Source: Candidatus Hydrogenedentes bacterium CG07_land_8_20_14_0_80_42_17 (GTDB lineage Bacteria > UBA8481). From it: a stretch of 15,794 nt of DNA. The position numbers were made by a program, and so were the translations under genes. Where the stretch lies: positions 1 through 15,794 of the forward strand of contig PEWQ01000117.1 in assembly GCA_002780065.1 (NCBI GenBank), written 5' to 3'. The notes under the pieces were generated by a model. The model was given only the letters and a program-made list of their open reading frames with translations. It searched no databases and was not told the origin of the DNA. The stretch's first letter is position 1, and every line of letters starts with the position of its first letter. Shown here in pieces: positions 1 through 15,737 of this stretch.

Positions 1-231
1 CTGGGTGTTTATCACAGCCACCCTGCTACTCCAGCAAGACCTTCTCAGGAGGACATAAAGCTTGCATTCGACCCTTCAATTAGTTACGTGATTATTTCGC
101 TTGCAGAAAAAGATCCAGTAGCTAAATCATTCCTGATAAAAGATGGAAAAGTCGATATCGAACCAATAGAAATCATTAATGATGAGGTTGAAGATTACGA
201 CGAATACTCTGTGGTAGGAAGGCGAATATGA
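1..231 (+). CDS. M67-family (JAMM/Mec-type) metallopeptidase, 3' part only
   Basis: Frame 1 is open from the left edge to a TGA at 229-231, giving the last 76 residues of a protein whose start lies outside the window. It opens with GVYHSHPATPARPSQED, a textbook JAMM zinc motif: H5, H7, S15 and D18 fit H-x-H-x7-S-x2-D. The catalytic Glu of the family would lie upstream. In this family, Mec-type enzymes remove the C-terminal cysteine made on a small ThiS/CysO-like sulfur carrier protein, and eukaryotic and archaeal relatives are deubiquitinase-like. The stop overlaps the next start as ATGA, so it is translationally coupled to the sulfite reductase gene. That context favours a role in sulfur-carrier-dependent cysteine synthesis; this role is inferred. 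The tail is rich in Asp and Glu. Confidence 0.85.
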   Translation: MGVYHSHPATPARPSQEDIKLAFDPSISYVIISLAEKDPVAKSFLIKDGKVDIEPIEIINDEVEDYDEYSVVGRRI

Positions 232-2570
232 CTTTTTACAATATACCTTCTGAATTGAAGTCGGAGATAGATTCTCTTGAGAAGATGATCTTAGATGTAA
301 AAGCAGGAAAGTTGTCGGCTCAGGAATTGAAGCCGCGACGGGTTCCTATGGGTGTTTACGAGCAGAGGAAGAACGATACATACATGATGCGGATCAGGAC
401 TCCGGGTGGAGCAGTTACGCCTCAACAGCTTCTGCGTATTGCTGAGGCGTCGAGAAGATGGGGCTCTTCGTATTTTCATGTGACCACGCGTCAGGAATTT
501 CAGATTCATTATGTCGCATTGGAAAATGTAATTCCTGCGATGCGATTTCTTTTAGAGGCTGGACTTTCAACAAGAGGCGGCGGCGGGAATACAGTCAGGA
601 ATATTGTTTCGTCAGTGGATTCCGGAATCGATCCTTTAGAAGTATTCGACGTTTCTCCTTTTGCCGCGGCGCTGACGTCACGAATGATTTCTGAATCGGA
701 TTCGTGGACAATGCCAAGAAAATTTAAGTTTGCATTTTCAAATTCGCCATCTGACACTGCGATGGCCTCAGTTGCGGATGTAGGTTTTGTTGCGACAGAG
801 AAGAATGGCGAGAAAGGATTCAAGGTTTATCTCGCAGGCGGAATGGGAGCAAAGTCTGCGGTCGGAATTCTTGCGCATGAATTTATTACAGTGGATGAAG
901 TCTATGCAGTAGCGCGCGCGGCAAAGAATTTGTTTAACAATAAAGGCAACAGGAAGAATAAACATCACAATCGATTGCGTTTTTTACGAGAAGACCTCGG
1001 CAAAGAAAAATTTTTAGAGGAGTATCATAATGAACTCGAAGCGGTGCATAAATTAAATCCTGAACCTTTACACTTGGAGTTAGAAAAATTCGAGAATAAA
1101 TCCGTGTCAGTCGACCTTCTGCCTTTGCAGCATAATTCAAACAACTTTGTGATATGGAAAAAGAGGCATGTTGCAAAGCAGAAGCAGGAAGGACTTCATT
1201 CAGTTGTAATTCCTTTTGCGCTGGGAAAGATCGATAACGAAAAAGGAATTGAACTTGCGAATTTTCTAATGCCGTTTGGCAGAAATGTTTTGAGAGCTAC
1301 AAAAGAACAGAATTTAAAATTGCGCAATATTCATGAAAAGTATCTTGGAAATATTTTTGAAATTTCACGACATATTTCAGAACTTTCTGAGCAACCCGCA
1401 ATTTTGAGAGATACGATAGCTTGCGCAGGAGCGGATACGTGCAGACTCGGAATATGCCTTTCGCGCGGTGCTGTCACGGCAATTACAAAAAGTCTTTCGA
1501 AGTCAGAACTCGATCTTGACAGGCTTTCCGGTTTTCGCATGAATCTTTCCGGATGCCCGAATTCATGCGGCCAGCATCAAACGGCGAATCTCGGATTTTA
1601 CGGAAGAACTCTGCACAAGAATGATCGCTATTATCCGGCATACACAGTTGTTGCCGGAGCGCAATTCGGTGACGGGCACCCTCGTTTAGCGAAGATAATT
1701 GGAGATATTCCGTCGCGCTCCATTGCGGACTTTACGAAGGAACTTTTGAAATACGTAATCGAGAAGAAAAGAGAAGATGAATCTTTTGATGAGTTTATGC
1801 AGAATTCAGGTTTAGAAGAAGCAAATCGTCTTGTCAAAAAATATCGGGAATTGGAAGTTCCTCTATACGAAGACGATCCTGCTTTTTATCACGATTGGAG
1901 CGCAAGCGAACCATTCACTTTAGCCGGCAGAGGCTCTGGCGAGTGCTCTGCAGGGCTTTTCGATTTAATAGAATTTGATTTAAAAAACATAAATGCAGAG
2001 AAGAAAGAACTCTCGAAGATATCCGAAACTGAAGCAGTAAAGAAACATCTTTACAATATCGCACATTTCTCGGCGCGAATGCTCATTATTACGCGCGGAG
2101 TTGACGCAGGTTCAGAAGGGCAAGTTTTCAAAGAATTTCAGGAGCGATTTATTTTGCCGGGGCTGGTCGAAAAAAGATTCGAAAGAGTTGTTATGGCCGG
2201 GCTTTCAAAGGATTTGAGTTTGCTTTTCGAATTAAAGGAAGAGGTATTGAATTTATCCGAGGCAGTTAAAAAACTTTACGAAAGCATGGATGATCAACTG
2301 AGATTTCCAAACGAAAGGAATTCGAATTTTGTAAACTCTCAGACTAAAGATGTTCCTGTCCACGATTTTCGCGGTGTCGGATGCCCTATGAATTTTGTGA
2401 AGGTTAAATTAGTTTTATCGAAACTGCCGAAGGGTTCGAAGATTGAAGTGCTGCTTGATGACGGAGAACCGATTCGAAATGTTCCGCGTTCGGTTGAATT
2501 AGAAGGCCACCGTGTGATAGGTATGAAGAAGAAAGATTCGCATTGGTCTGTCGTGATAGAAAAGAGGTAA
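228..2570 (+). CDS. Siroheme/4Fe-4S sulfite reductase fused to a C-terminal TusA-like domain
   Basis: The 780-residue protein is longer than a typical one-chain sulfite/nitrite reductase of roughly 550-650. Residues 50-100 form the first ferredoxin-like half-domain (FHVTTRQEFQIHYV), and RGGGGNTVRNIVSS (116-129) belongs to the siroheme-binding core. The four ligands of the siroheme-bridged 4Fe-4S cluster are C399-x5-C405 and C443-x3-C447 (SGCPNSCGQHQ). Residues about 601-695 are a helical region resembling a HEPN-like domain. Residues 709-780 are a TusA/SirA-like sulfur-transfer domain with DFRGVGCPMNFVKVKL, candidate persulfide cysteine C719. Role: six-electron reduction of sulfite to sulfide in the cytoplasm. 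Siroheme genes and APS reductase in the same operon favour sulfite over nitrite as the substrate. An AGGAAGG ribosome site at 216-222 supports the ATG at 228. Confidence 0.93.
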   Translation: MTFYNIPSELKSEIDSLEKMILDVKAGKLSAQELKPRRVPMGVYEQRKNDTYMMRIRTPGGAVTPQQLLRIAEASRRWGSSYFHVTTRQEFQIHYVALENVIPAMRFLLEAGLSTRGGGGNTVRNIVSSVDSGIDPLEVFDVSPFAAALTSRMISESDSWTMPRKFKFAFSNSPSDTAMASVADVGFVATEKNGEKGFKVYLAGGMGAKSAVGILAHEFITVDEVYAVARAAKNLFNNKGNRKNKHHNRLRFLREDLGKEKFLEEYHNELEAVHKLNPEPLHLELEKFENKSVSVDLLPLQHNSNNFVIWKKRHVAKQKQEGLHSVVIPFALGKIDNEKGIELANFLMPFGRNVLRATKEQNLKLRNIHEKYLGNIFEISRHISELSEQPAILRDTIACAGADTCRLGICLSRGAVTAITKSLSKSELDLDRLSGFRMNLSGCPNSCGQHQTANLGFYGRTLHKNDRYYPAYTVVAGAQFGDGHPRLAKIIGDIPSRSIADFTKELLKYVIEKKREDESFDEFMQNSGLEEANRLVKKYRELEVPLYEDDPAFYHDWSASEPFTLAGRGSGECSAGLFDLIEFDLKNINAEKKELSKISETEAVKKHLYNIAHFSARMLIITRGVDAGSEGQVFKEFQERFILPGLVEKRFERVVMAGLSKDLSLLFELKEEVLNLSEAVKKLYESMDDQLRFPNERNSNFVNSQTKDVPVHDFRGVGCPMNFVKVKLVLSKLPKGSKIEVLLDDGEPIRNVPRSVELEGHRVIGMKKKDSHWSVVIEKR

Positions 2571-2573
2571 AAG

Positions 2574-2795
2574 ATGATAGAAGGACACGCTAGAAGCCTA
2601 GCCAAAGCATTTTCATGGAGAATAAGCGCATCAATTTGGACAGTAGCAATAGCTTTCATTTTTACAAGAAAAGTTTTTTTATCACTTTCCATCGGCGCAG
2701 TAGAATTTGTTACAAAGATATTTTTCTATTATATTCACGAACGAATCTGGGAAAAAATTAATTTTGATCGTAAGAGACCTGAATATGAAATTTGA
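2574..2795 (+). CDS. DUF2061 family small membrane protein
   Basis: This 73-residue protein matches the DUF2061 pattern as I know it: an N-terminal KAFSWR segment, a Thr/Ala-rich hydrophobic helix (about residues 19-33), a second hydrophobic stretch (about 34-52), and the hallmark YYIHERIWEKI near the C-terminus. Two membrane segments are likely. The start ATG follows AAGAGG (2562-2567) at 6-nt spacing and lies only 3 nt after the sulfite reductase stop. The last 11 bp overlap cysH. Its function is unknown. Its position inside the sulfate-activation operon suggests a helper role in sulfur assimilation or sulfur-anion handling, but nothing in the sequence proves it. Confidence 0.85.
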   Translation: MIEGHARSLAKAFSWRISASIWTVAIAFIFTRKVFLSLSIGAVEFVTKIFFYYIHERIWEKINFDRKRPEYEI

Positions 2796-3498
2796 TTTGG
2801 ATAGCTATCGAAAAGAGCTTGAAGGAAAAAGTGCGCGGGAGATTTGCGCATGGTCAGTTGAAACATTTGAGAAACCGAATGTGATACTTGCGTCGAGTAT
2901 GAGTCTTGAGGATCAGGTGCTGACCGACATGTTGTCCGAAGTTTCGCCGGGTTCTAGAGTCTTTATACTCGATACAGGAAGGCATTTCGAAGCGACATAC
3001 GATACACTACATAGGTCGATGAGTTATTTCAATGTGAAGTATGAGATTCTCGAACCTGACGCAAAAGAGGTTTCTGAAATGATTCAGGATAAAGGTCCCA
3101 ATCTTTTTTTTGAGAGTGTGGAGAATAGAAAATTATGCTGTGAAATCAGAAAAGTCAGACCTCTAAAAAAAGTTTTACAGACGGTCTCTGCATGGATTTG
3201 CGGATTGCGCAGAGAGCAGTCAATAACTCGGAAAGAAATAAACTCGATTGAATGGGATTCAGAAAATAATATCTTCAAGATAAATCCAATTTTCGATTGG
3301 ACTCTTGAAGCAGTATGGAAGTATGTAAAAGAGCGAGGACTTCCGTACAACTTATTGCACGATAAAGGTTTCCCGAGCATCGGGTGCGAGCCATGCACGC
3401 GGGCAATTGAATTCGGAGAAGACATACGGGCAGGCAGATGGTGGTGGGAACGTCCAGAGAGCCGCGAATGCGGTTTGCATATTGGAAAGAAAAAATGA
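2785..3498 (+). CDS. cysH: Adenylylsulfate (APS) reductase, CysH family
   Basis: This 237-residue thiol-dependent reductase converts APS (or PAPS) to sulfite. The PP-loop-type nucleotide site is seen at ASSMSLEDQ (36-44), followed by LDTGRHF (62-68) and GLRREQS (140-146). The paired cysteines C118-C119 (KLCCEIRK) and C201-x2-C204 (GCEPCTRAI) are the 4Fe-4S ligands of the APS-using (assimilatory, plant/Pseudomonas-type) subclass. PAPS-only enzymes such as that of E. coli lack them. C229 in ECGLH is the catalytic C-terminal cysteine. A longer reading from 2707 would add 26 residues buried in the DUF2061 gene without similarity to the family, so I chose the ATG at 2785, 11 bp before the DUF2061 stop. 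It overlaps cysD by ATGA. Confidence 0.94.
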
Positions 3499-4382
3499 TA
3501 CAAAATCATCTCGATAGGTTGGAAGCTCGAAGTGTTCATATTTTGCGCGAGGCATATCGTGAGTTCAAACAGCTTTGCATGCTATGGTCAATTGGGAAAG
3601 ACAGCACAGTGCTTTTGTGGCTTACGCGAAAGGCGTTTTTCGGGCATGTTCCCTTTCCGCTTGTACACATAGATACGGCGTTTAAGATTCCGGAGATGAT
3701 TGAATATCGAGATCGGCTTGCCCGTGAGTGGAAGCTGAACATGATTTTTGGAACGAACAAGACAGCTTTGGACGAGAAGCAAACTTTTCCTGACGGGAAT
3801 GTAAACAGAATTATGTGCTGCAAGTTTCTGAAGACTGAAGCTCTGAAGAGAACTCTTTCCGGAGAAGGAGAGAGATACCGAATGAATCATTCAACCGGCA
3901 AATACGAAATTGATATGAACAAGGAACCTTACACTGGAGTAATTGTCGGCGCGCGTGCGGATGAAGAGGGAAGCCGTTCGAAAGAGAGATATTTTTCGCC
4001 GAGGGATCGTGAGAGCGAGTGGGACATTGCGGAACAGCCGCCTGAATTGTGGAATCAATACAAGACCGATTTTGCTCCGGGCACGCATCTCCGGATACAT
4101 CCGCTTCTTGACTGGACAGAACTGAATATTTGGGAATATATCGAGCGCGAATCGATTCCAATCGTCTCTCTTTATTTTGATCGAGGAGACGGGAAGAGAT
4201 ACAGGTCGCTAGGCTGTGCGCCGTGCACTCAGCCTGTCGAATCAACAGCGAAGAATGTTCACGAGATAGTTGAAGAATTGCGAAGCGGAAAATTTTCCCG
4301 CATTGCAGAGCGCTCTGGCCGAGCCCAGGACAAGGAAGACAGCGGAGGGCTCGAGACTTTACGACGGGAAGGCTACATGTGA
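3495..4382 (+). CDS. cysD: Sulfate adenylyltransferase subunit 2
   Basis: The 295-residue small subunit of ATP sulfurylase makes APS and pyrophosphate from ATP and sulfate in complex with the GTPase CysN. Visible family features are the PP-loop WSIGKDST (31-38), [12 protein letters not shown] (57-68), [14 protein letters not shown] (152-165), the [11 protein letters not shown] segment (238-248) and the typical C-terminus ERSGRAQDK...[12 protein letters not shown]. An upstream in-frame ATG at 3438 would add 19 residues inside cysH. The ATG at 3495 is preferred because it starts a family-typical N-terminus ([17 protein letters not shown]), follows a GGAAAGA site and overlaps the cysH stop as ATGA. 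The length and conserved sites suggest an active enzyme. Confidence 0.96.
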
Positions 4383-4415: not shown

Positions 4416-6233
4416 ATGAGTAGTAATTCTATCGCAAAACCTTTCGATAATCGCGAACAGTTTAATCTTGTTATAGTCGGTCATGTCGATCACGGGAAGA
4501 GCACAGTTATCGGCAGGCTTCTCTCTGATACTAATTCTCTGCCTGATGGAAAACTGGAAGCGGTTAGAGAGCGGTGCAGAAGGAACTCAAAGCCGTTCGA
4601 ATACGCGTTTCTTCTTGATGCCTTGAAGGATGAGCAGGAGCAGGGAATCACGATAGATTCTGCGCGATGTTTTTTTAAGTCCGGCAATCGAGATTACATT
4701 ATTACTGATGCTCCGGGTCATGTTGAATTTCTGAGGAACATGATAACCGGAGCCTCGCGCGCTGATGCGGCGCTTCTTGTTATTGATGCGGCTGAAGGCG
4801 TGATGGAAAACTCGCGCAGGCACGGATTCATTCTATCGCTTCTTGGAATTCGACAGGTTTCCGTTTTGGTCAACAAGATGGATCTTGTCAAATACGATCT
4901 CAAAGTGCTCGAGAAAATCAAGGAAGAGTTCGGTGCATTTCTCGAAAAGATCGGAGTCAAGCCTGCGAGCTTCATACCGATCTGCGCTCGTGAAGGAGAA
5001 AATATAGTGAGGCGCGCAGAATGGCATGACGGAAAAACGGTATTGGAACAGATCAATGATTTTTCCGCGCATGAAGAATTGGACAACAAACCATTCAGAT
5101 TGCCGATTCAGGGTGTTTACAAATTTACGGAAGAAGATGACCAACGCCGGATTTTTGCGGGCAATGTCGAGACCGGAACAGCGAGTATCGGCGACGATGT
5201 TATTTTTTATCCTTCAAAGAAAAAAACAAAGATAGCGAGCATTGAAGTTTTTTCTGCGAAAGAGAAGAAGACGATCAGCGCAGGAGAAGCTGTGGGAGTC
5301 ACTTTAGCCGATGAACTTTATGTTAGACCCGGAGAAATTATGACAAAATCTTCGGATATTTCTCCTAGAGTTGGAACTCGTCTTCGTGTTCAGCTCTTCT
5401 GGATGGGACGGTCTCCGATGATAAAAGGCAAGCGCTACAAACTAAAGATTGCATCATCGAGAACTTCCACTTTTCTCTCTTCGATTGAAAAAGTTTTAGA
5501 CGCTTCGGACTTTTCAATGTCTTTTGCAAAGTCACAGATAGACCGTCACGATGTCGCAACTTGCGTAATCGAATCCATAAGGCCAATCTCTTTTGATCTT
5601 CCGACTGAAATTGCAGGGACTGGAAGACTTGTAATTGTTGATCGATATGAAATTGCCGGCGCGGGAATTGTTCTCGGAGGTGCAATGGATTCGAAGTCGA
5701 TTTTCGATGAGCATGTAGAGAAGCGTGAAGAACGCTGGGAAACAAGCGAGCTCACTTCGGAGCAGAGAGCGTTGAGATTTGGGCACAAACCGAAATTTAT
5801 TCTGATTACGGGAAGAAATGAAGAACGCTCGAAGAGAATAGGCATGATGCTCGAGGCGCGGCTTTTTGATGAAGATTATCATGTTTATTATCTAGGAATA
5901 GCGAATCTTGATTTCGGCATGGACCAGGACGTTGAGGAGAAGGAAGAGGAAAGAGCGGAAAGAATCAGGCGGTTAGGCGAGCTTTCACGCATAATGACGG
6001 ATAGCGGTCAGATATTTATAACTGCTATAGGTGAGTTGGACCCGCATGAAATTAGAATTATCAGAAAGTTGAATGCTCCGGGAGAAATCCTTGTTGTTTC
6101 TTTATCACAGGACTCGGATACTGTCTCGGAAGCGGATATTAATCTCAACGAGAATGATGATGAGGTTAATTCGATCAGAAAGATTTGTGAACGATTGAGT
6201 ATTGAAAAGGTGATCGAGGATTATGTCATATGA
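4416..6233 (+). CDS. cysN: Sulfate adenylyltransferase GTPase subunit with degenerate APS-kinase-like C-terminal domain
   Basis: The 605-residue protein has an intact elongation-factor-like GTPase: G1 GHVDHGKS (22-29), a switch-I-like EQGITIDSA (75-83), G3 DAPGH (98-102) and G4 NKMD (153-156). Beta-barrel domains run to about residue 425. It couples GTP hydrolysis to APS formation by CysD. Residues about 448-605 align with the APS kinase half of CysNC fusions, from the linker [12 protein letters not shown] onward. The kinase P-loop (normally GLSGSGKST) is replaced by GRNEERSK (466-473), and the usual LDGDNVR stretch reads LGIANLD (493-499). The later [13 protein letters not shown] is still recognisable. 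The kinase half is therefore predicted inactive. GAGGA at 4402-4406 supports the start. There is a 33-nt gap after cysD and an 11-bp overlap with the next gene. Confidence 0.93.
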
Positions 6234-6690
6234 AAAAGAAGAAATTTTTTTACCAGTCGCAATAAAACTCAGAGAAGGCTTTATTTTAGTTGTTGGCGGC
6301 GGCAAAGCGGCTCTTCAAAAAATACAATCGCTTCTTCAGTTCACGAGAAAGATCAAAGTTATCTCCACAAAAATATTGAAAGAGATCGAAGAGTTCGGAG
6401 TCGAATTTAAGAAAGACGCTTACAACGATCGATATCTCGAAGACGCGATACTTGTTTACGCTTGCACTGATGATAAAAAAATAAATCAAAAGATAGCCGA
6501 AGATGCCCGCATAAGAGGGCTTATGGTTTGTATCTCCGATAATCCAGTTGAAAGCGATTTTATCTCACCGGCAATATTTCGCAAAGATTACATGACTGTT
6601 GCTGTGACTTCAAATGCCAGAGACGTTAAGAGATCTATTGCATGGAGGGACAGGATCAAAGAGCTGGACAAAGAAGAAGGATTACCGTGA
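6223..6690 (+). CDS. Precorrin-2 dehydrogenase / sirohydrochlorin ferrochelatase-like protein
   Basis: This 155-residue protein belongs to the Met8/SirC/CysG N-terminal family. It has the NAD-binding glycine motif [16 protein letters not shown] (23-38) and then the [16 protein letters not shown] region (81-96). [15 protein letters not shown] (105-119) contains the position, D106, expected for the family's catalytic aspartate (compare the VDD-P motif of CysG). These enzymes oxidise precorrin-2 to sirohydrochlorin, and some also insert iron to give siroheme. At 155 residues it is shorter than many relatives (about 200) because the C-terminal helical part is trimmed, so ferrochelatase activity is uncertain. 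Its place in the operon fits siroheme supply to the sulfite reductase upstream. The ATG lies 11 bp before the cysN stop. Confidence 0.88.
6672..6689 (+). promoter_or_regulatory. Ribosome binding site selecting the GTG start of the SUMT gene
   Basis: AAGGA at 6677-6681 sits 5 nt before GTG 6687-6689, inside the end of the preceding gene, and the GTG overlaps its TGA as GTGA. An ATG at 6642 in the same frame would give a 15-residue Arg/Gln-rich extension with no family support. I therefore prefer the GTG. Confidence 0.7.
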
Positions 6691-7871
6691 AGCAATTAAC
6701 GCTTGGCGCGGTCTCGATAAATATCGACAAAGCAAAATGCTTTTTTGATGAACGGTTAGATGTTGAATTAAATGTTATTGAACTTAATGAAATTGTTGAC
6801 GCGATTAAAACTTTAGATTCAGAAAAAATTAATGCGATAGTTGTTAGTTCAGATTCATTACCTTTTCCCCGTCCTTTTGACTTACGAATTTTTTGTGCCT
6901 TTACCTCTGAAGAAAATAAAATAATTGCGGTTATTGGAAAGAAAAAAGAAATTGAGGTTCGAAAAATATTTTTTGAATTAGATGAAAGAAGAAGATGGGG
7001 CAAGGTTTGGATTGCGGGTTTCGGACCGGGAAATGCCGATCTGCTGACTATTAAAACTGATCGGCTGTGCGGAATAGCCGATGCTATTTTTTATGACGAT
7101 TTGATAGATTCAGATTTCCTAAAAAAATACGAAGCAGAAAAAATATATGTTGGAAAGCGCAAGGGAAGAAGAAAGACAGACCAGAATGAAATCAATGCAG
7201 AACTTTTTTCTGCGGCTCGAAGCGGTAAGCGAGTAGTCCGCTTGAAGGGTGGAGACCCGTTTATTTTTGGGAGAGGCGGAGAGGAACTGGAATACTTGTC
7301 GAAAAGATGTATTGCAGTTGAAGTAGTGCCGGGCGTCAGCGCAATAAACGCGGCCGCGGCAGAATTTGGAATTCCTTTGACTCAACGATATCTATCGAGT
7401 TCTCTTGAAATTGTTTCGATGCACGGCCGCACGTCCAGCAATTCGACATTGGTCTATTACATGAGCGCGTCACTTTTAAACGAAGTGCAGTCTGATTTGC
7501 GCGAAAAAGGAATTGCAGGAGATACACCGGTTGCGATTATACGGAATGCGTCCATTGCAAATTCAGAAATAGTTACGACGACAGTTGACTCGATGGAGGG
7601 ACTCTCGGTAAGCTCTCCCGCACTTGTGATTGTTGGCAGAACTTCTGCTTTTGCCAGCCAACCCTCACGATGGCTAACTATCGGTAAAGAAGAGCTGGGA
7701 TTAGGATTTATGGATCGGGAAGATATTATGGAAGATCTTAGCAAATTCGAAAAATATAGGAGCTATTTAAATCGATACGACGGAATTGCTTTTGCATGCG
7801 CTGAAAATAAAAAACTATTTTTCGAGATTGCAGGTGAACTTTCAGGCTTGCTATTTTATGCTCCAAGCTGA
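6687..7871 (+). CDS. Uroporphyrinogen-III C-methyltransferase (SUMT) with extra N-terminal HMBS-like and C-terminal modules
   Basis: The 394-residue product carries an intact SUMT/CobA core at about 105-325: VWIAGFGPGNADLL (107-120), RLKGGDPFIFGRGGEE (185-200) and VVPGVSAINAAAAEFGIPLT (213-232). It uses SAM to methylate uroporphyrinogen III to precorrin-2, the substrate of the preceding gene product. Residues 1 to about 90 are not part of SUMT. LTLGAVSINIDKAK and INAIVVSSDSLPFPRPFDLR resemble the first domain of hydroxymethylbilane synthase (compare iGtRgSkLA and iDlAVHSlKDlPtelP) but lack most of its substrate loops. A tail at about 331-394 (YDGIAFACAENKKLFFEIAG) weakly resembles a uroporphyrinogen-III synthase segment. 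Both flanking assignments are tentative. It is the last gene of the operon. Confidence 0.9.
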   Translation: MKQLTLGAVSINIDKAKCFFDERLDVELNVIELNEIVDAIKTLDSEKINAIVVSSDSLPFPRPFDLRIFCAFTSEENKIIAVIGKKKEIEVRKIFFELDERRRWGKVWIAGFGPGNADLLTIKTDRLCGIADAIFYDDLIDSDFLKKYEAEKIYVGKRKGRRKTDQNEINAELFSAARSGKRVVRLKGGDPFIFGRGGEELEYLSKRCIAVEVVPGVSAINAAAAEFGIPLTQRYLSSSLEIVSMHGRTSSNSTLVYYMSASLLNEVQSDLREKGIAGDTPVAIIRNASIANSEIVTTTVDSMEGLSVSSPALVIVGRTSAFASQPSRWLTIGKEELGLGFMDREDIMEDLSKFEKYRSYLNRYDGIAFACAENKKLFFEIAGELSGLLFYAPS

Positions 7872-14816: not shown

Positions 14817-14845
14817 TTGACTTTATTCTTTATTCAAAAGATAAT
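14817..14845 (+). promoter_or_regulatory. Sigma-70-type promoter of the tRNA-Ala gene
   Basis: TTGACT (14817-14822) and GATAAT (14840-14845) each match five of six consensus bases and are exactly 17 nt apart. Transcription would start near 14852, leaving a leader of only a few nucleotides before the tRNA at 14856. Confidence 0.82.
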
Positions 14846-14855
14846 GAATGAAGTT

Positions 14856-14928
14856 GGGGATGTAGCTCAGTTGGAAGAGCGCGACATTCGCATTGTCGAG
14901 GCCAGGGGTTCGAGTCCCCTCATCTCCA
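14856..14928 (+). tRNA. tRNA-Ala (anticodon CGC)
   Basis: A full 73-nt cloverleaf. The acceptor GGGGATG pairs with CATCTCC (14921-14927) and includes the G3-U70 wobble that is the alanine identity element. The D-arm is GCTC/GAGC. The anticodon arm is CGACA/TGTCG with loop TTCGCAT (anticodon CGC at 14889-14891). The T-arm is AGGGG-TTCGAGT-CCCCT (14904-14920). The discriminator is A14928. The CCA end is not encoded, as the gene is followed by AA. It would read GCG codons. Confidence 0.96.
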
Positions 14929-14930
14929 AA

Positions 14931-15030
14931 GGAGATGAAGCAAAAGTAGAAACGCCGTAGGATTGCGGCGTAACAAATGGATTCGCAGATCGCAATGGAA
15001 GGCGAACGCACGTCCCCGCGTCTCCAAAGG
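14931..15030 (+). pseudogene. Decayed tRNA-Ala-like copy (tentative)
   Basis: GGAGATG (14931-14937) can pair with CGTCTCC (15019-15025) as a 7-bp acceptor-like stem with one wobble. Between them are a hairpin ACGCCG/CGGCGT (14952-14957 and 14966-14971, 8-nt loop) and a weaker TTCGC/GCGAA (14982-14986 and 15002-15006). Both this element and the intact tRNA-Ala end in TCTCCAAAGG and begin with GG-GATG-x-AGC. There is no T-loop TTC and no canonical anticodon loop, so it is not a working tRNA. Chance similarity is possible. Confidence 0.35.
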
Positions 15031-15056
15031 CAGCCGCAGGCTTTAGCCTGCGTTAC
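15031..15056. repeat. REP-like palindrome with TTTA loop
   Basis: CGCAGGC (15035-15041) and GCCTGCG (15046-15052) form a perfect 7-bp stem with a TTTA loop, flanked by CAGC and TTAC. There is no downstream T-run close enough for a terminator. Its CAGGC-type core is similar in style to the palindrome at 7898-7950, suggesting a family of dispersed elements. Confidence 0.6.
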
Positions 15057-15081
15057 TGAAGATACTTTATTTTCCTGAATA

Positions 15082-15173
15082 GGAGAGGTCGCATAGTCCG
15101 GTCTAGTGCGCACGCCTGGAGCGCGTGTAGACTTTAAAAGGTCTCGTGGGTTCGAATCCCACCCTCTCCGCCA
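15082..15173 (+). tRNA. tRNA-Ser (anticodon GGA), CCA encoded
   Basis: A 92-nt class II tRNA. The acceptor GGAGAGG pairs with CCTCTCC (15163-15169), then discriminator G15170 and an encoded CCA (15171-15173). The anticodon arm is CACGC/GCGTG with loop CTGGAGC, anticodon GGA at 15118-15120. A long variable arm, AGAC...GTCT (15129-15144), is typical of serine tRNAs. The T-arm is GTGGG-TTCGAAT-CCCAC (15146-15162). It reads TCC and TCT codons. No separate promoter is convincing, so it may be transcribed with tRNA-Ala. Confidence 0.95.
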
Positions 15174-15304
15174 GTTTTCACTTTTTACGATTTCTCTGAA
15201 AATACAATTTGGCGGTGTTTTTTGACTGATATTCAAACATTCTTTGAGCAAAACCCCCACTAAGGAAGCCCCTCCTACGCTTACGCTTCGGCGGGCAGGC
15301 ACCC

Positions 15305-15433
15305 CCGCCACCGCTCGCAACACCACAGAAAAATACTCTTTGCTCTTTTCATTTTGCGCGCGCCGGATTTCTTCTTTTCCTAATGAAAAGAGTATTTTTC
15401 TGTGGTGTCTTGCAATGAGTTGCAAGGTGGCGG
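15305..15433. repeat. Large nested inverted repeat (long imperfect hairpin)
   Basis: The outer arms CCGCCACC (15305-15312) and GGTGGCGG (15426-15433) are perfect complements. Inside, 15320-15341 and 15387-15408 are a perfect 22-bp inverted repeat. In an alternative register, 15320-15335 plus 15343-15353 pair with the continuous 27-nt arm 15382-15408, leaving a 7-nt bulge CTCTTTG that duplicates the adjacent CTCTTTT. The loop (about 15354-15381) contains an alternating GCGCGCGC. A small TTGCAA-TGAG-TTGCAA hairpin (15410-15425) sits on the right shoulder. Confidence 0.85.
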
Positions 15434-15454
15434 AACTGGCCTCATTTTGATTTG

Positions 15455-15504
15455 GCAAGAGAAAAGCGGAATTCCCCCAAACCCTCCTTCCGCTTTTCTC
15501 TTGC
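15455..15504. repeat. Perfect 17-bp inverted repeat
   Basis: GCAAGAGAAAAGCGGAA (15455-15471) and its exact complement (15488-15504) flank a 16-nt C-rich loop. There is no downstream T-run on the + strand and no matching A-run upstream for a minus-strand terminator, so it is not a standard terminator. It lies 21 nt after the larger inverted repeat. Confidence 0.85.
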
Positions 15505-15708
15505 TCAAACGGAACGGGAACGGCAAGCACGAGCGGGAAAAAATTCCTTCCCCGCAACCCCCTTCCTTTTTGCCCGTCTGCTTGAGCTTCGCCCCCAAAA
15601 CTTTTCGGCGGGACGGCGTGACGGAAAATACAAAAGAAAACAAAAGAGGAATAACGCTTGCCCCACCACCCGTGCGCGGAAAAGTTTAAGGAACTCCCCG
15701 AAGATTCG

Positions 15709-15737
15709 TTTACAAAATTGTTTAAATTATGTATCAT
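15709..15737 (+). promoter_or_regulatory. Possible promoter reading out of the window
   Basis: TTTACA (15709-15714) and TATCAT (15732-15737) each match five of six sigma-70 consensus bases with 17-nt spacing in an AT-rich stretch. The presumed transcript would begin with GGGGTGC (15740-15746) and could fold with the GCAC...CCCC downstream (about 15760-15769). Confidence 0.4.

Follow-up and report, generated by a model that had tools for sequence, protein, structure and literature searches.

The cysN gene of the window, by which we mean the whole 15,794-nucleotide stretch of DNA analyzed here, ends in a domain that resembles APS kinase while lacking the motifs of an active one, and this raises the question of why a GTPase subunit of ATP sulfurylase should carry it. 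The initial annotation proposed that the pathway had abandoned the PAPS step and retained the fused domain, perhaps for APS binding, assembly or channelling to CysH. ORFs together with Pfam and NCBIfam matches define a sulfate-assimilation cluster that lies entirely on the + strand and comprises a sulfite-reductase-like gene, cysH, cysD, cysN and two sirohaem genes (Table 1). The TusA motif of the sulfite-reductase-like protein reads CPMN, not CPxP, and the listed ORF of cysH begins at 2707 with TTG. The CobA-type protein has about 115 extra residues at its N terminus and about 70 to 90 at its C terminus; a Pfam search of both ends matched no family. Elsewhere in the window, tRNA-Ala (14855-14929) and tRNA-Ser (15082-15173) lie on the + strand, and a 304-aa minus-strand ORF overlying both (14823-15737) is probably not a gene.

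Table 1. Features of the sulfate-assimilation cluster and of its CysN protein (window positions)
Feature	Position	Strand	Basis
Sulfite/nitrite-reductase-like protein, C-terminal TusA domain	228..2570	+	Pfam NIR_SIR, NIR_SIR_ferr, TusA
cysH, [4Fe-4S] APS-reductase type	2785..3498	+	TIGR02055; CC, CxxC and ECGLH motifs
cysD, PP-loop subunit of ATP sulfurylase	3438..4382	+	Pfam PF01507 5.2e-39; NCBIfam CysD 3.4e-106
cysN, 605 aa: ATP sulfurylase GTPase subunit with fused pseudo-APS-kinase domain	4416..6233	+	ORF; Pfam GTP_EFTU 8.8e-43 and APS_kinase; G1/G3/G4 motifs intact
Linker (bearing R437 and W441) plus N-terminal helix of domain, residues 424-447	5685..5756	+	Alignment; both residues invariant in 49/49 carriers
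Pseudo-APS-kinase domain, residues 448-605	5757..6230	+	Pfam/NCBIfam/PDB matches; AlphaFold2 model and fold matches
Degenerate P-loop GRNEERSK, residues 466-473	5811..5834	+	Alignment with live CysNC
Degenerate LDGDNVR motif, now LGIANLD, residues 493-499	5892..5912	+	Alignment with live CysNC
Approximate site of missing lid (about 30 residues, DPKGLY...FTGI.SPYE); about 9 residues left	6108..6150	+	Lid gone in 49/49 carriers
Precorrin-2 dehydrogenase-like protein (CysG N-terminal half, sirohaem)	6223..6690	+	TIGR01470 77.3 bits, cut-off 62.3
Uroporphyrinogen-III C-methyltransferase (CobA/CysG C-terminal half), N- and C-terminal extensions	6642..7871	+	TIGR01469 215.7 bits, cut-off 185

The protein is recognizable as a CysN by its motifs, its Pfam match and the cysD partner upstream. 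Its EF-Tu-like GTPase half is intact, with GHVDHGKST at residue 22, DAPGH at 98 and NKMD at 153. It narrowly misses the CysN cut-off of NCBIfam TIGR02034 (326.8 bits versus 336.1), a shortfall that we read as divergence rather than as the mark of another protein because the window CysN sits in a divergent GHVDHGKS subgroup. It falls far under the CysNC profile PRK05506 of NCBIfam (417.5 versus a cut-off of 715).

The last 180 residues match APS kinase in Pfam (APS_kinase, E values of 1.6e-9 to 1.2e-8; 38.4 bits versus a cut-off of 21.1), in NCBIfam and among PDB sequences (1.8e-7). The NCBIfam apsK match has an E value of 4.8e-12, yet its 45.9 bits stay below the equivalog cut-off of 138.7. 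An AlphaFold2 model of the domain, built from 17 homologues, reached a pLDDT of 85 and a pTM of 0.83. All 50 Foldseek matches listed for this model were APS kinases or APS-kinase-containing proteins, and in VIA-align the APS kinases and APS-kinase-like domains scored Z 16.8-21.5, with other P-loop kinases next at 14. By model and profile, the C-terminal domain has the APS-kinase fold, in agreement with the initial annotation, which had seen an APS kinase outline in residues 448-605. The Pfam match and the strong fold matches rule out spurious homology and dispose of the concern that structural similarity might be lacking. The homologous unit begins slightly before residue 448, with a conserved linker containing R437 and W441 at about 5685-5740.

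In an alignment with live CysNC, the P-loop GLSGSGKS corresponds to GRNEERSK in the window protein and LDGDNVR to LGIANLD, just as the initial annotation had described. The lid, whose absence it had not mentioned, is missing as well. In Mycobacterium tuberculosis CysC, the lid residue Arg559 stacks on ATP, Lys562 serves catalysis and Phe576 stacks on APS, while APS is held by Asp480, Arg483 and Phe492 (PMC4373884). We transferred this numbering via a live CysNC relative and not via the M. tuberculosis sequence itself, and applied it to 49 CysN proteins with such a dead domain (the carriers) that we recovered in database scans. The lid residues R559, D560, K562 and Y565 and the Mg-binding P-loop residue Ser457 were absent from all 49. 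D480 was lost in 47 of them, and almost every carrier lacked R483 and F492; the window protein is without all three. The P-loop lysine (Lys456) was kept in 40 of the 49 and lost in the window protein and several others. A basic residue occupied position R497 in 42 carriers, and Arg497 is the sole APS contact that the window protein retains among those checked. The features that define the enzyme (the P-loop Lys and Ser, Asp480 of LDGD, and R559 and K562 of the lid) are all missing from the window domain. Because the P-loop, LDGDNVR, lid and APS-contact residues have been lost, kinase activity is not expected, as initially annotated, and normal APS binding is unlikely, as far as the residues allow a prediction. 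With the lid, D480, R483 and F492 gone from the window protein and nearly all of the family, the suggestion that the domain was kept for APS binding finds no support.

The carriers come from records assigned to Omnitrophota, Planctomycetota, Verrucomicrobiota, Elusimicrobiota, Nitrospinota and others. Counting as strong those matches that scored at least 125 bits, we found the domain in 38 of the 285 genomes sampled from the Omnitrophota phylum and in 23 of the 294 sampled from the Planctomycetota phylum. Nearly all strong matches in these samples lay in frames of about 600-700 aa, that is, in CysN fusions, and the exceptions were few and truncated or unclear. Two pseudo-domain CysN genes each occurred in three Planctomycetota-phylum genomes (G569, G621 and G647), and two different ones in one MAG (L003 and L007).

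In a tree of the domain, the 19 dead domains used formed one clade with a support of 100/99, to be read with some caution given the long branches. The GTPase tree rejected a clade made up of the dead CysN proteins alone (p = 2e-5), as L015 falls inside it; a clade of the dead CysN proteins plus L015 was compatible with the data (p = 0.38). L015 (2281-4143) is a CysNC from Oscillospiraceae whose kinase domain is intact, and it has an R-x3-W linker pattern in common with the dead CysN group. Its live domain falls outside the dead domains in the domain tree, although grouping with them was not rejected either (p = 0.32), and domain replacement in L015 is possible. The dead-domain change on CysD-CysN apparently arose once and then spread or persisted through several phyla.

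The retention of the domain was borne out by a comparison of substitution rates, which the initial annotation had proposed. Among the closest carrier pairs, dN/dS ranged over 0.04-0.15 in the domain and 0.06-0.16 in the GTPase half. All pairs were drawn from relatives, since none is close enough to the window CysN for a pair including it; the best match of the window, L033, has a frame break inside cysN. Where saturation was lowest, in two of the pairs, constraint was stronger on the domain (0.039 versus 0.088 and 0.070 versus 0.158). The domain is thus under purifying selection in relatives. Conservation had fallen in the ligand loops, namely the P-loop (0.78 to 0.43), the DGDN loop (0.71 to 0.40), the SPYR loop (0.76 to 0.43) and the lid (0.67 to 0.36), and had risen in the linker (0.34 to 0.43), beta-2 (0.62 to 0.70) and the C-tail (0.17 to 0.43). 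Arg437 and Trp441 of the linker were invariant in all 49 carriers. Intact P-loops in near relatives, which the initial annotation would have taken as a sign of recent decay only, were found in none of the 49, and recent decay is ruled out by the single domain clade, the spread of carriers over several phyla, the family-wide motif loss and the purifying selection.

The claim that the PAPS step has been abandoned fits the window genome itself. An APS_kinase profile search of this genome, which is 86.9% complete, gave a single match, the CysN domain, and found no separate APS kinase or cysC; likewise, neither Sulfotransfer_1 nor Sulfotransfer_3 had a match in the same 86.9%-complete assembly. The window CysH has the four-cysteine signature that the initial annotation assigned to APS reductases (CC, CxxC and the catalytic cysteine of ECGLH), and it passes the APS-reductase cut-off of TIGR02055 (243.4 versus 235.3 bits). 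Because no other APS kinase and no sulfotransferase matched and CysH is of the four-cysteine type, the gene content is consistent with an APS-only route, in which APS would pass directly to CysH without a PAPS step.

Loss of PAPS does not, however, explain the domain in general. Of the 57 carrier genomes searched, 31 had a separate CysC match (two of the matches cut by contig ends) and 26 lacked one, which rules out the general rule that a dead domain means PAPS loss. In some Planctomycetota the separate cysC immediately precedes the fused pair, as cysC-cysD-cysN', where cysN' denotes the pseudo-domain gene. In eight Omnitrophota-phylum genomes (L163-L170) it adjoins a second kind of CysH with CCxxNK instead of CCxxRK. 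Sulfotransferase matches accompanied the separate CysC: Sulfotransfer_3 matched in 11 of 16 genomes that have it and in 1 of the 16 that do not (Fisher p = 0.0006, uncorrected for relatedness). One other genome of the window's phylum, from the same order (G001), encodes a classical CysN without the domain and a live standalone CysC. The domain is also not needed for an APS-to-CysH route in general, since a CysN without any such domain adjoins a four-cysteine CysH in L029. As the pseudo-domain is kept with or without PAPS synthesis, its role is to be sought in CysN itself.

We therefore favor a reading, to which we give a probability of roughly 0.55, in which selection keeps the pseudo-APS-kinase domain as a non-catalytic module that serves the assembly or regulation of the CysD-CysN enzyme to which it is attached. 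Three observations point to such a structural or regulatory role: the fusion to CysN is almost constant, the ligand loops have been lost while the core was kept, and an invariant linker has been gained. The domain would act in cis, most likely by holding subunits together, in keeping with the dimer formation of APS kinases, by tuning the CysD-CysN reaction, or both, and the R437/W441 linker may fix its position. The dimer helices show no special conservation, which weakens the simple version in which the APS-kinase dimer was kept.

The main rival, which we consider unlikely, is a docking role: the domain would bind whichever enzyme consumes APS next (in the window CysH, in other carriers a separate CysC), and APS would be handed over without release. 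Gene order is consistent with this, as cysH, cysD and cysN' form one cluster in the window and in many carriers, and some Planctomycetota have the cysC-cysD-cysN' arrangement. ATP sulfurylase-APS reductase complexes have been proposed in onion, and channelling has been shown for Rhodobacter sphaeroides (PMC4220642). With the GTPase and CysD distances removed, domain distances correlated with CysH distances at a partial r of 0.60, in a small test of 16 genomes with non-independent pairs and no rate model; the same test gave 0.01 for CysH and CysD distances given the GTPase. The divergence of the domain follows that of CysH more closely than expected, a hint of contact with CysH. Against docking, carriers retain the domain whether cysH adjoins cysDN' or lies elsewhere alongside CysC. 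If docking were true, a kinase would have been turned into a channelling adaptor that is kept across phyla however APS is used.

Somewhat more doubtful is an allosteric sensor, in which binding of APS, PAPS or another nucleotide to the domain would regulate CysDN, much as the dead domain of the Penicillium ATP sulfurylase does for its enzyme. The architecture is alike in principle, the Penicillium structures 1m8p and 1i2d are among the fold matches, and PAPS binds that domain as an inhibitor (PMC3734648). In most carriers the basic residue at R497 and the P-loop lysine could still permit the binding of an anion or nucleotide. Against a sensor, the lid is missing together with the contacts D480, R483 and F492, and no parts of the domain dropped in conservation as much as the ligand loops. 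The window protein, moreover, lacks the P-loop lysine, and no PAPS source was found in its genome.

It is improbable that the domain is a functionless relic decaying after the loss of PAPS synthesis. Over long distances it does evolve faster than the GTPase half (37% versus 60% mean identity), and its motifs have decayed furthest in the subclade of the window protein, but dN/dS lay far under 1 wherever a pair could be measured, R437 and W441 never vary, and the domain persists where a separate CysC maintains PAPS synthesis. Carriers from several phyla, virtually without exception, have open frames. A still-active kinase or other phosphotransferase with a non-standard active site is very improbable: most carriers have G-x4-GK at the P-loop, but none has Ser right after its Lys or the lid Lys/Arg, D480 is nearly always gone, and the window has lost the Lys itself.

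A cis-acting module of CysD-CysN, our preferred reading, is directly testable, given the many homologues and the clear residue differences. For annotation, the family carries a warning: Pfam scores such CysN proteins as APS kinase, so that automatic pipelines could predict PAPS synthesis in genomes that possibly lack it. None of the open-licence PMC papers that we searched describes a CysN with a dead APS-kinase domain.

Among known systems, the CysNC/NodQ proteins, in which CysN bears a live APS kinase (for example, M. tuberculosis CysNC), have the same domain order and fold as the window protein and can be aligned with it throughout. In contrast to them, the window CysN has lost the P-loop Ser, the DGD aspartate, the APS contacts and the entire lid. 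Standalone CysC has the fold and the RRxGE helix in common with the window domain but keeps its motifs and lid intact, and it is found besides the pseudo-domain in the carrier genomes with a separate CysC. The ATP sulfurylase of Penicillium chrysogenum ends in a dead, allosteric APS-kinase-like domain that matches our model (1i2d/1m8p, Z 16.8). Unlike that PAPS-regulated domain, the window domain is without lid and APS contacts, in a genome where we saw no source of PAPS. Yeast ATP sulfurylase likewise has a non-catalytic appendix of APS-kinase fold, which is reported to be structural and to hold the oligomer together (PMC4220642, PMC3779200). Our model matches this C-terminal domain (1j70/1jec, Z 11.6), though more weakly than it matches true APS kinases, and by analogy the yeast enzyme offers the closest precedent for a structural role. 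The fungal domains are fused to a Sat-type ATP sulfurylase, whereas Pfam places the window domain on the unrelated CysN. Dead APS-kinase domains were thus already known from fungal ATP sulfurylases, and what is new is one on the unrelated CysD-CysN enzyme. The likeness amounts to convergence with fungi, with a dead APS kinase most likely put to use within an enzyme of sulfate activation, here the GTPase-driven CysD-CysN.
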